A stretch of 64,000 bases of DNA, taken from NCBI RefSeq assembly GCF_015831355.1, contig NZ_JADWYR010000001.1:682001-746000 (forward strand). The letters are read 5' to 3'. Under the pieces are notes generated by a model. That model was not told where the DNA came from. It was given only the letters and a program-made list of their open reading frames with translations, and did not search any database. Source of the DNA: Panacibacter microcysteis (GTDB lineage: Bacteria > Bacteroidota > Bacteroidia > Chitinophagales > Chitinophagaceae). Shown one piece after another: positions 2,327 to 61,257 of the stretch (its first letter is position 1; each line of letters begins with the position of its first letter). A program made the position numbers and the translations under genes.

Positions 2327-2345
2327 GCAACAATACATGTATGTA

Positions 2346-2420
2346 CCCGGCTGTAGTTTATCTATAATGCTTTGGTTGCGTCGCACTCTTGTGCTTCCTG
2401 TTCTTTATGCGGCATTGGCT
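2346..2420 (+). repeat. dispersed intergenic repeat, type A copy
   Basis: Core GTTGCGTCGCACTC at 2375-2388, preceded by the usual CCCGGCTGTAGT at 2346. It forms a facing pair with the type B copy at 2518-2611. Confidence 0.85.
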
Positions 2421-2517
2421 GCCTTCGCACTCCAACACTTACTGTTTTGTAGCCTGCGTTGAGATTGATGGCTTTACTTTTAAGCAGTCAGACGGCGTAC
2501 CGTAAGACCGGTGTGGC

Positions 2518-2611
2518 TGACAGGCAGCATCGCCACAGTTGCCCAATTTGCGGAACGTACAAGTGAGTGACACAACAGGTGATGCCACAAAGTACAAATG
2601 CCGGCATATAA
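2518..2611 (-). repeat. dispersed intergenic repeat, type B copy
   Basis: Core AAGTGAGTGACACAAC (reverse of GTTGTGTCACTCACTT) at 2561-2576, followed by the typical CAGGTGATGCCA and a GCCGGC end at about 2604. It faces the type A copy upstream. The 375-bp gap 2273-2647 holds only the terminator and these two copies. Confidence 0.85.
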
Positions 2612-8781: not shown

Positions 8782-8856
8782 TACTACAGTTGCTATAAAA
8801 GTGGAACGCACAAGTGAGTGACACAACAGGCGATGCCATATTGACCTGTTGCCGGC
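8782..8856 (-). repeat. dispersed intergenic repeat, type B copy
   Basis: Core AAGTGAGTGACACAAC at 8812-8827, continued by CAGGCGATGCCATA and ending in GCCGGC at 8851-8856. It lies between convergent genes. Confidence 0.85.
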
Positions 8857-15445: not shown

Positions 15446-15520
15446 ACCCGGCAGTATTGCTACTATGTAGCTGTGGTTGCGTCGCACTCTTGTACGGTTG
15501 AATCTTTACTGGGCAAGTGC
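15446..15520 (+). repeat. dispersed intergenic repeat, type A copy
   Basis: Core GTTGCGTCGCACTC at 15476-15489, preceded by ACCCGGCAGTATTG and followed by TTGTACGGTTGAATC. It lies between the purF stop and the purF terminator, so it is probably part of the mRNA. Confidence 0.85.
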
Positions 15521-19300: not shown

Positions 19301-19408
19301 GCCGGTTTTACAACAAGACTGCTTGTAACGGATCGCTTCTGCTGCCATAAAATTGGAACGTACAAGTGAGTGACACAACAGGCGATGCCATAAAATACTA
19401 AAGCCGGC
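19301..19408 (-). repeat. dispersed intergenic repeat, type B copy with terminal inverted ends
   Basis: Core AAGTGAGTGACACAAC at 19364-19379. The outer ends are GCCGGTTTTA (19301-19310) and TAAAGCCGGC (to 19408), a 10-bp inverted pair with one mismatch. Inside, TGCCATAAAA occurs twice as a direct repeat on either side of the core. It lies in the probable 3' UTR of the iorB-type gene. The remainder of the gap 19093-19452 is two terminators. Confidence 0.85.
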
Positions 19409-22194: not shown

Positions 22195-22272
22195 GCCGGC
22201 AGTTGTTTTTATGGCATCGCCTGTTGTGTCACTCACTTGTGCATTCTGTTTTCATGGCAGCTGCAGCGCTTC
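22195..22272 (+). repeat. dispersed intergenic repeat, type B copy
   Basis: Core GTTGTGTCACTCACTT at 22223-22238, GCCGGC end at 22195-22200, TTTATGGCATCGCC before and TTTTCATGGCAGC after the core. Confidence 0.87.
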
Positions 22273-24851: not shown

Positions 24852-24921
24852 GCTGAGTAAAGAACCAACCGATGAACGGATTGCGACGCAACGAAGATGC
24901 CATGAAAAACCGCAGCTGGTA
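24852..24921 (-). repeat. dispersed intergenic repeat, type C copy
   Basis: Core GGATTGCGACGCAAC at 24878-24892 followed by GAAGATGCCATGAAAAACC. It matches the copy at 51706-51770 over about 30 bases of flank and core. Lies between lysA and the MlaF-like gene. Confidence 0.75.
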
Positions 24922-24932
24922 TCACAAAATTC

Positions 24933-30305: not shown

Positions 30306-30372
30306 GAGCCGGACTGTAGTACTATTGTCAGCTTTGGTTGCGTCGCACTCTTCAGGGCTTTATTCTCTATTC
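30306..30372 (+). repeat. dispersed intergenic repeat, type A copy
   Basis: Core GTTGCGTCGCACTC at 30337-30350 with the usual GCCGGACTGTAGTA upstream. One of two copies in a divergent (promoter-side) gap. The rest of the 421-bp gap 30276-30696 carries the secA promoter region. Confidence 0.83.
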
Positions 30373-34111: not shown

Positions 34112-34204
34112 ACGCTTCGGTCTTCGCGCTTGCTCAATAGTATTGTTGCTGTTGAAGAGTGCGACGCAACGAAAGCTTCATAGCAATACAAAAGCCTGGT
34201 TCAT
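34112..34204 (-). repeat. dispersed intergenic repeat, type A copy
   Basis: Core GAGTGCGACGCAAC at 34157-34170 with GAAAGCTTCATAG after it and the CTTCGCGCTTGCTCAATA arm before it. Located between the secA terminator and the terminator of the convergent gene. Confidence 0.85.
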
Positions 34205-38971: not shown

Positions 38972-39049
38972 TTGAATTTATTTAAAAGTTACGAATATTC
39001 TAACAGTTACGATTCATATTGCCGGCGGAAACGTATTAATTTATTTATG

Positions 39050-39150
39050 AGCCAGGCTGTATTACTGCTTTCATCGCCTGTTGCGTCGCACTCTTGTACG
39101 TTCAGATCATTCCGGGGCATTTGGTACGTACACGAAAAACGGCGCTACAG
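39050..39150 (+). repeat. dispersed intergenic repeat, hybrid B-flank / A-core copy
   Basis: Type B left flank (TTTCATCGCCT) joined to the type A core GTTGCGTCGCACTC at 39080-39093 and TTGTACGTTC. Faces the copy at 39190-39245. Together they account for most of the 337-bp gap 38972-39308. Confidence 0.82.
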
Positions 39151-39189: not shown

Positions 39190-39245
39190 TATTTGTTGCA
39201 GTACAAGTGAGTGACACAACCAAAGCTTAATAGTAAAGAAAAGCT
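39190..39245 (-). repeat. dispersed intergenic repeat, hybrid B-core copy
   Basis: Type B core AAGTGAGTGACACAAC at 39205-39220, followed by CAAAGCTTAATAG, which is the type A flank. Inverted relative to the copy at 39080. Confidence 0.8.
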
Positions 39246-39308
39246 GATCTAAAAAAAGATATTGGAGGGAATGTTTTGAATAACGCCTTAGCTATTTCAT
39301 TTGTTGCC

Positions 39309-43108: not shown

Positions 43109-43194
43109 AATCTTCGCGTTTGCTGCATATTGGTACAGCGGTACAAGAGTGCGACGCAACGATGCTTAATTGAAATACAAAAGCCGGGTTCATA
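43109..43194 (-). repeat. dispersed intergenic repeat, type A copy
   Basis: Core GAGTGCGACGCAAC at 43147-43160. Its CAAAAGCCGGGTTCATAA end supplies one arm of the terminator at 43179-43210. Confidence 0.85.
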
Positions 43195-44630: not shown

Positions 44631-44705
44631 TCCGGCAGTAGTGCTTATGGCATCGCCTGTTGTGTCACTCACTTGTGCGTTAGGTTCTTTACTGAGCTGT
44701 TGCCG
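44631..44705 (+). repeat. dispersed intergenic repeat, type B copy
   Basis: Core GTTGTGTCACTCACTT at 44659-44674; TCCGGCAGTAGTGC and TTATGGCATCGCC precede it. Fills much of the 341-bp gap 44476-44816. Confidence 0.85.
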
Positions 44706-47527: not shown

Positions 47528-47600
47528 GCATGGTGGCATCACCTGTTGCGTCGCACTCTTGTACGTTTGGAGCTTCATTGGGCAAGTGCGTAGAACGAAG
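47528..47600 (+). repeat. dispersed intergenic repeat, hybrid B-flank / A-core copy
   Basis: GGTGGCATCACCT (type B flank) leads into the type A core GTTGCGTCGCACTC at 47545-47558, then TTGTACGTTTGGAGC. Confidence 0.83.
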
Positions 47601-48429: not shown

Positions 48430-48534
48430 GCCGGTTACAGTCTTCGCACATGTTCAATAAAGCTTCAGCCGTACAAGAGTGCGACGCAACAAAAGCTTCA
48501 TGCTTATTCTTTTGCCTGGCTCATAAGTCTTCTT
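48430..48534 (-). repeat. dispersed intergenic repeat, type A copy
   Basis: Core GAGTGCGACGCAAC at 48477-48490 followed by AAAAGCTTCATGC and TTTTGCCTGGCTCATAA. The last bases reach into the 3' end of the GroES-like gene. Confidence 0.82.
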
Positions 48535-51380: not shown

Positions 51381-51705
51381 AAGTTGATGTTTAAAAATTA
51401 ATAAAATAGTTAGCGTTGGCTGGCAACAGGGTTACGGCGGTATATCGCAACCCGTAAAATATTTATAGCACACAGCAACGTGCCTTACTGTAATGTGTAC
51501 ACTACAATTCATGATAATTGATTTAGGTTGCTGCAATAAAAGTGTAGTAAAAGGGTGCCTGCCTCGTGTGCTTAAGAATTCGTTTTGGTATCCGGTTTTG
51601 CCTTGATTTTGAAAAAGCAGTTTATCGTTAGCTTGTAGTAAAATATAAACTTAAACCGACAAATGCAAGTGTTCGATAAATTATTTTTTAATATGAGAAT
51701 GGTAC

Positions 51706-51770
51706 CAGCTATAGTTTTTCATGGCATCTTCGTTGCGTCGCAATCCTTTCATCTGCAGAATAAATATTAA
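51706..51770 (+). repeat. dispersed intergenic repeat, type C copy
   Basis: Core GTTGCGTCGCAATCC at 51733-51747 preceded by TTTTTCATGGCATCTTC; the flank and core match the reverse of the copy at 24852-24921. The rest of the 451-bp gap 51381-51831 is A/T-rich with the promoter of the next gene. Confidence 0.75.
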
Positions 51771-52624: not shown

Positions 52625-52726
52625 AGCCTTTCGCTTCGTTCTTCGCTTTGCTCAATATAGTTTCATCAGTTGAAGAGTGCGACGCAACAGTTGCCTGATT
52701 GAAAAGCTAAAAGCCGGCTTCAAAAA
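52625..52726 (-). repeat. dispersed intergenic repeat, type A copy
   Basis: Core GAGTGCGACGCAAC at 52675-52688, with the arm CTTCGTTCTTCGCTTTGCTC before it and AAAAGCCGGCTTC at its end. Lies between the stop codon and the terminator. Confidence 0.87.
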
Positions 52727-57362: not shown

Positions 57363-57371
57363 TTTTTGTAA

Positions 57372-57460
57372 CCCGGCTGTTGAATATGCATGTAGCTTTC
57401 GTTGCGTCGCACTCTTGTACTGTTGAAGCATTAATGAGCAAAGCGAAGACAAGTGCGAAG
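57372..57460 (+). repeat. dispersed intergenic repeat, type A copy
   Basis: Core GTTGCGTCGCACTC at 57401-57414; ACCCGGCTGTTG before it and the arm AATGAGCAAAGCGAAG after it. Faces the type B copy at 57560-57610. Confidence 0.87.
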
Positions 57461-57559: not shown

Positions 57560-57610
57560 TCAATGTTCTGAACGTACAAGTGAGTGACACAACAGGCGAT
57601 GAGTAATGAG
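57560..57610 (-). repeat. dispersed intergenic repeat, type B copy
   Basis: Core AAGTGAGTGACACAAC at 57578-57593, then AGGCGATGAG. Together with the type A copy it fills most of the 285-bp gap before coaX. Confidence 0.84.
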
Positions 57611-57647
57611 TTGAAGCCTGTCAACAAAAATCTAACTGCAACTATTC

Positions 57648-61174: not shown

Positions 61175-61257
61175 CACCAACTGCTGTACATTGGGCATCG
61201 CCTGTTGTGTCACTCACTTCAGGGTTCCTCTTTTATGGCAGCAGAGGGCGTGGTTAT
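61175..61257 (+). repeat. dispersed intergenic repeat, type B copy
   Basis: Core GTTGTGTCACTCACTT at 61204-61219, preceded by TGGGCATCGCCT and followed by TTTTATGGCAGCAG. Sits in the 394-bp gap 61087-61480 with the terminator below. Confidence 0.85.

Follow-up and report, generated by a model that had tools for sequence, protein, structure and literature searches.

The window, that is the whole 64-kb stretch analysed here (G000:C1:682001-746000), contains 18 cores at up to four mismatches in 20 positions. They are listed in Table 1, together with the longer units to which the paired cores belong and with their counterparts in the genome of a sister species, G001. The core occurs mainly in two forms, A (GTTGCGTCGCACTCTTGTAC) and B (GTTGTGTCACTCACTTGTAC). 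A preliminary description had proposed that a forward A core faces a reverse B core in one gap at three loci, and that the two cores are related. Both proposals are borne out: the coordinates are correct, the cores were located at all three loci, and A and B are alike at 16 of 20 positions. The A core of copy 1 carries a single mismatch, close to its 3' end.

Table 1. Paired units and solitary cores in the window, with remarks on the corresponding gaps in G001.
Feature	Position	Strand	Remarks
Copy 1, left unit	2344-2394	+	outer arm with CCCGGC at 2346-2351; A core 2375-2394
Copy 1, right unit	2557-2606	-	B core 2557-2576; GCCGGC outer arm, 2600-2605
Solitary B core	8808-8827	-	
Solitary A core	15476-15495	+	A+ in G001 too
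Solitary B core	19360-19379	-	G001 gap: A+/A- pair
Solitary B core	22223-22242	+	
Solitary A core	30337-30356	+	exact 16-mer, deviating tail; G001: A+/B-
Solitary A core	34151-34170	-	synteny breakpoint
Copy 2, left unit	39047-39099	+	A core 39080-39099 plus outer arm; kept in G001
Copy 2, right unit	39201-39256	-	B core 39201-39220 plus outer arm; kept in G001
Solitary A core	43141-43160	-	synteny breakpoint
Solitary B core	44659-44678	+	G001: B+/A-
Solitary A core	47545-47564	+	G001: A+, equal offset
Solitary A core	48471-48490	-	G001: A-
Solitary A core	52669-52688	-	synteny breakpoint
Copy 3, left unit	57363-57420	+	stop codon, directly followed by T-run, CCCGGC arm and A core 57401-57420; kept in G001
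Copy 3, right unit	57574-57628	-	B core 57574-57593 plus outer arm; kept in G001
Solitary B core	61204-61223	+	exact 16-mer, deviating tail

CCCGGC and GCCGGC, which had been taken for the outer ends of the pairs, occur together in copy 1 only. In copy 2, the left end is GCCAGGC and the right end, reading inwards, GATCAGC; in copy 3, CCCGGC on the left is combined with a GACAGGC-like right end. An end-to-end alignment of the three loci shows agreement in 19 of 20 columns of the A core and in all 20 of the B core, and a CC.GGCTGT common to the left arms; the stretch between the cores and the right arm agree at scattered columns only. Similarity among the pairs is thus confined to the two cores and a portion of the left arm. 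Of the two findings named beforehand as speaking against the composite pair, the first, interiors with no common sequence, therefore applies. As to the second, an outer boundary is present but degenerate, consisting of a T-run followed by approximately CC.GC, about 24-28 nt outside the core. The window also contains two 54-bp degenerate units (24871-24924 and 51700-51753) that are 91% complementary to each other. Their core ends in GTTGCGTCGCAATCC instead of CACTCTT, possibly a third core form, and G001 has similar cores.

Copy number and conservation of the core

Copy 1, with its facing cores, is a single visible instance of a signal found throughout the genome. In the 5.2-Mb G000 genome, the 16-bp pattern GTTGYGTCRCWCWCTT is present in 1,427 exact copies, 733 on the forward and 694 on the reverse strand, compared with none for the reversed control pattern; the number of cores is therefore far above chance. 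Exact cores in 464 kb comprise three words, A (65 copies), B (58) and A2 (GTTGCGTCGCACACTT; 13), and the strongest covariation is the one distinguishing A from B within the core, C/T at position 5 with G/A at position 9. The mismatch spectrum in 664 kb of G000 falls from 199 exact cores to 31 with one mismatch and five with two, beyond which the control level is reached. Cores of G001 are less uniform (224 exact, 67 with one and 18 with two mismatches).

Only the core is invariant within a longer, otherwise degenerate unit, which runs from a T-run at approximately -36 to -33 through CC.GC at approximately -28 to -24 and a weak AT..AGC.TC arm to the core and a GTAC. Units often start immediately after the stop codon of a gene or the T-tract of a terminator, and the distance from stop codon to core peaks at 37-40 nt. 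Cores are mainly intergenic: those inside ORFs number only 13 of 192 (G000) and 13 of 168 (G001), with genes predicted by a simple codon-usage script. By eye, TACTATTgaGC-like words flank the core at unit positions -14 to -5 and +28 to +38, suggesting a direct repeat. A coding reading of the unit was rejected by eye; the arm varies in length by 1-2 nt. No signal was found for A/B domains or for core types linked to one strand.

Comparison of 664 kb of G000 with 590 kb of G001 yielded 73 syntenic gaps and 28 aligned cores. Both species have cores in 24 of these gaps, G000 alone in none and G001 alone in eight; 19 more, of at least 60 bp in both species, are core-free. Every core-bearing syntenic gap of G000 (24 of 24) thus has a core in G001, and in the eight G001-only gaps (of 32 with a core) gain and loss are ambiguous. 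The number of cores differs in five of the 24 shared gaps. The two species are highly diverged, with 40.6% identity at fourfold degenerate sites in 106 orthologous genes (saturation expectation, 26.1%). Nevertheless, aligned cores of the same type are identical at 326 of 330 positions 2-16, a count that covers 22 of the 28 cores and omits the six of differing type. Over all 28 aligned 16-mers, 418 of 448 positions agree; four cores have switched between A and B, and two more between A2 and A. The upstream arms are as similar between non-orthologues of equal type (75.0% identity) as between orthologues (74.9%).

All three pairs of the window persist in G001 next to a matching gene, and the sequence between the cores is unrelated. 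The core starts of copy 2 are 125 bp apart in the window and 139 bp apart in G001; for copy 3, the values are 177 and 80 bp. In G001, copy 1 corresponds to a 70-bp A/B facing pair, with one mismatch in the A core, that precedes the gene lying downstream of copy 1 in the window. The former upstream neighbour of this gene is found elsewhere in G001, followed by a terminator without a core. Some gaps differ in size between the species in an insertion-like manner. The two genomes belong to one genus; several short inversions scramble the gene order between positions 10,000-64,000 of the window and G001 C1 2.05-2.30 Mb, while the neighbourhood is kept.

Orientation along the chromosome and within close pairs

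Neighbouring solitary cores usually lie on opposite strands. When solitary cores in neighbouring groups are considered, usually with genes between them, this is the case for 120 of 155 in G000 and 104 of 127 in G001. Among solitary neighbours less than 2 kb apart, 48 of 49 and 74 of 83, respectively, are opposite, a bias reached by 0 of 2000 permutations in each species. The alternation fades with distance (28 of 47 and 7 of 13 at 3-5 kb), is independent of gene direction and core identity, and is weaker beside intact pairs (78 of 121). Facing neighbours are closer to each other than back-to-back ones, with medians of 1.8 vs 2.8 kb in G000 and 1.2 vs 1.8 kb in G001. In two other core-bearing genomes, 11 of 13 neighbours less than 3 kb apart alternate in G025, which is of another genus (p = 0.02), and 9 of 12 in G026 (not significant), among the matches listed and omitting contigs with a single hit. 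For gene insertion into pairs as a source of alternation, the cases are too few: genes bracketed by cores were present in two cases and absent in one, and four and one, respectively.

Cores occupy 49-86% of gaps of at least 100 bp, depending on gap class and species. Convergent gaps are the most occupied class in both species (45 of 53 in G000, 37 of 43 in G001); the counts are 111 of 176 and 129 of 167 for tandem gaps, and 34 of 70 and 35 of 63 for divergent gaps. Solitary cores in tandem gaps show no clear tie to transcription, with 52 sense and 42 antisense in G000, and 47 and 37 in G001.

Cores less than 300 bp apart almost always face each other: 19 of 20 such neighbours do so in 544 kb of G000 and 36 of 39 in 320 kb of G001, as do 14 of 14 close pairs in G026 and 5 of 5 in G025 among the matches listed. 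A-B combinations are enriched among close pairs, with 19 of 25 in G000 (p = 0.009; approximately 50% expected) and 44 of 65 in G001 (p = 0.0004; approximately 45% expected). This enrichment is absent at 300-2000 bp, where 43 facing neighbours are of the same class and 40 are A/B.

Folding of the whole pair, calculated with DNA parameters, is no better than that of shuffled sequences for the three loci in the window (z = 0.35, -1.0 and -1.0). In the full set of 90 close pairs, 64 fold better than dinucleotide shuffles (z < -2), as expected of two facing copies; these include 26 of 27 homotypic and 38 of 63 heterotypic pairs. Long core-core stems were seen in compact G001 pairs (no control). Eight single units fold no better than shuffles (z = -0.75 to 1.49), and the unit has no consensus fold for B and one of only three base pairs for A.

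The pairs had been described as imperfect terminal inverted repeats. When sides are shuffled among pairs, keeping to one genome and to the given core types, their complementarity exceeds that of the two sides of an actual close pair (own value, -32.9; permuted value, -34.4; 0 of 300 permutations as weak). For facing neighbours 400-3000 bp apart, the deficit is gone (arm identity, 0.375 vs 0.374). Because mismatched arms are more complementary to each other than the two arms of one pair, the arrangement of A facing B looks like avoidance of palindromes, and the inverted repeat appears to be tolerated rather than built. The imperfection of close inverted repeats looks selected, presumably against hairpins.

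Possible explanations

We favour, with a probability of about 0.4, an ancient intergenic repeat whose cores are now selected as double-stranded binding sites of a chromosomal protein and used in opposite orientation. The repeat would provide approximately 1,400 copies of a long asymmetric recognition site, consisting of the T-run, CC.GC, a degenerate arm and a near-invariant core of 16-20 bp, mainly in the forms A (with its variant A2) and B. These sites would have spread long ago as an intergenic repeat, and the cores would be maintained today by selection (or drive) as predicted sites for a chromosomal DNA-binding protein of the family. Neighbouring sites within approximately 2-3 kb point in opposite directions: they either face each other within a single gap, at distances of mostly 48-200 bp, or lie on both sides of one gene or a few. 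Oppositely oriented sites may pair or bridge at the boundaries of transcription units, with a topological or insulating role such as that proposed for BIMEs. Cores in opposite orientation, commonest where transcription units converge, are what site pairs similar to gyrase- or IHF-binding BIMEs would show. The data show that the core is constrained, that its sites are conserved and occupy many gaps, that neighbours are oppositely oriented and that close pairs are less complementary; the protein, the bridging and the benefit are inferred. Speaking against this reading are the family genomes lacking an exact core, the eight G001-only gaps, and an alternation that is weaker beside intact pairs and not significant in G026. 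The variable core number at shared gaps, the switches between A and B and the less uniform cores of G001 further argue that a single core is not indispensable. Selection on some 1,400 sites is a large claim, and drive could imitate selection.

A more specific model, which we regard as unlikely, is that a family-specific protein bridges opposite 20-bp cores that are 50 bp to approximately 3 kb apart and thereby delimits small loops around one or a few genes. By analogy, this logic would resemble that of convergent CTCF sites, and the A/B dimorphism would serve to make perfect palindromes rare among close facing sites.

A common view of dense extragenic repeats is that they are selfish relics; here, the core is nearly unchanged at matched sites, whereas neutral positions are far diverged, and a simple orientation rule holds over thousands of bases. 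Whether REP/BIME-like repeats organise chromosomes becomes directly testable, with the core-free relatives in the family as natural controls.

The preliminary description had instead seen a complete non-autonomous element in each facing pair and half-elements in the solitary copies. A relic of such a MITE- or REPIN-like mobile element, with A and B as its ends and with gene-bracketing cores as old composite or split copies, seems to us rather unlikely, although the idea is partly supported. The recurring facing unit, the A-B enrichment among close pairs and the folding of most of them are as this explanation predicts. The extended outer arm with its T-run boundary, the mainly intergenic location, the insertion-like differences in gap size and the patchy occurrence within the family also speak for it. 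However, no excess of shared 4-8-nt words was found in the flanks of the 90 close pairs, which, unlike MITEs, thus lack target-site duplications. Nor is there support for solitary copies as decaying halves: positions 2-16 are preserved in 316 of 352 solitary cores and in 162 of 192 paired ones, at a detection limit of two or three mismatches that strongly decayed sites escape. Mobility is not supported by the 24 syntenic G000 sites, all of which are old and yet have intact cores, though eight gaps are G001-only. The reduced complementarity within pairs, the loss of A-B enrichment beyond 300 bp and the failure of any of three Y1 transposase queries to track the copies (see below) also argue against a mobile relic.

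DNA uptake sequences of Neisseriaceae and Pasteurellaceae are very numerous near-exact copies on both strands. The core resembles these: it is a short, nearly exact word that occurs on both strands, and its sites are conserved. If only core-bearing DNA were imported, transformation would restore decayed cores, and molecular drive of this type could account for the steep exact-match spectrum, the balanced strands, the facing pairs and the conservation of sites without their flanks. We consider it quite unlikely, as the core is longer than an uptake sequence (16-20 bp), is mainly intergenic and has two forms per genome, and as drive alone does not predict alternating orientation.

We also considered that the cores are sites of site-specific recombination, at which direct repeats are deleted and inverted repeats flip the genes between them, so that alternation remains. 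The decay of alternation with distance and the many local inversions between G000 and G001 are consistent with this, and a core is present at 10 of 15 synteny breakpoints vs 30 of 83 kept adjacencies. The difference is weak when genes are directly adjacent and their gaps measure 60 bp or more (7 of 10 vs 25 of 53), so that recombination at the cores is no more than a possibility. Same-orientation neighbours at 300-2000 bp are equally rare for identical cores (10 of 62) and A-B combinations (7 of 72), which argues that alternation is no by-product of recombination between identical cores. We consider this explanation very unlikely. An element acting at the level of the transcript, be it a terminator, a 3'-UTR signal or a small RNA, would fit the location of units behind stop codons and terminator T-tracts and the high occupancy of convergent gaps, but is hardly credible given that core orientation is barely linked to transcription, that single units lack a fold and a consensus structure, and that no Rfam match covers a core in the window.

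Known repeat families and distribution among genomes

The palindromic units of BIMEs are of types Y and Z. Like the BIME and REP sequences of enterobacteria, the repeat described here is extragenic, is present in hundreds of copies and has two unit types in inverted pairs. The comparison with BIMEs and REPs made in the preliminary description is therefore apt for the architecture, but the palindromic unit that defines a REP is missing: our unit is not palindromic and has no fold. In further contrast to BIMEs, alternation spans genes over kilobases, beyond single clusters, and complementarity is reduced in close pairs. The passages on BIMEs in PMC2817692 describe regularly spaced REPs of alternating orientation within BIMEs, and binding of BIMEs to gyrase or IHF.

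REPINs of Pseudomonas SBW25, which occur with RAYT, are described in the relevant part of PMC3116915 as over-represented 16-mers that are mainly extragenic and form inverted doublets. On that account our repeat is similar in 16-mer numbers, extragenic location and inverted doublets, and many close pairs are foldable. According to the same part of PMC3116915, diversity is higher among REPIN singlets than among doublets, and the distances between next neighbours are random above 200 bp. In our repeat, singlets are as intact as paired cores, orientation follows an order up to approximately 3 kb, and the presence of RAYT does not track the repeat. For CGTC-tagged REPs, the sections concerned in PMC3733652 describe a stem of 8-9 bp beside the tag, families dominated by heterodimers, and no dedicated transposase. 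Our A core has a CGTC tag and the B core a TGTC variant of it, as far as the tag is defined in those sections, but the unit has no 8-9 bp stem after the tag. The CGTC/GTAG survey in PMC3733652, in the passage on REP dimers, finds no obvious explanation for their heterotypy and then discusses hairpin instability. Our results bear on this frequent heterotypy, as complementarity is reduced in close facing copies and not in distant ones. The repeat is not described in the open-licence literature searched; the word GTTGCGTCGCAC is present in one plant paper. A scan of the 64-kb window against Rfam gave two matches, both below the gathering score and neither over a listed core.

Exact cores are found in 20 of 59 genomes examined (including that of the host): 20 of 36 in the host's family and none of the 23 from the order's other families. 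The counts range from 1 to 1,921 per genome, the maximum being in the sister species G001; G025 has 271 and G026 has 521. As 16 of the 36 family genomes have no exact core, the role of the repeat must be dispensable. Across the phylum, the 20-bp pattern has matches in six of 395 genomes, all of the host's family. None of the manC loci scanned in named relatives (27 of 29) contains a core; this set may omit close relatives. Stretches of 80 kb from four genomes, G019 and G022 (both without an exact core), G023 (one) and G010 (11), revealed no substitute word of comparable density. Short repeats of the AATTAGGAATTAGG type are abundant in the core-poor G010 (L173-L176), and the core-free G022 (L161-L164) has other repeated words such as TCACGTCTCACG, with at most nine copies.

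Tyrosine transposases of the Y1/RAYT type were rejected as the agent, as none of three queries tracks copy number in the 59 genomes; this leaves room for a different transposase. The two RAYT-type queries have no match in G025 and G026, despite the 271 and 521 cores of these genomes. The third Y1 query has none in G001 (1,921 cores) or G025 and a single match of 36% in G026. Conversely, Y1/RAYT matches are present in core-free genomes such as G003, G004 and G022. In G000 itself, a RAYT-type gene lies between two repeats near position 1,546,000 of contig C2 (L032, 900-1250 and 1857-1870), with a different repeat, GCATACTTGCGCCAGTAGCTTTG..., seen twice, on one side and a truncated B-like core, GTACAAGTGAGTGA, on the other.
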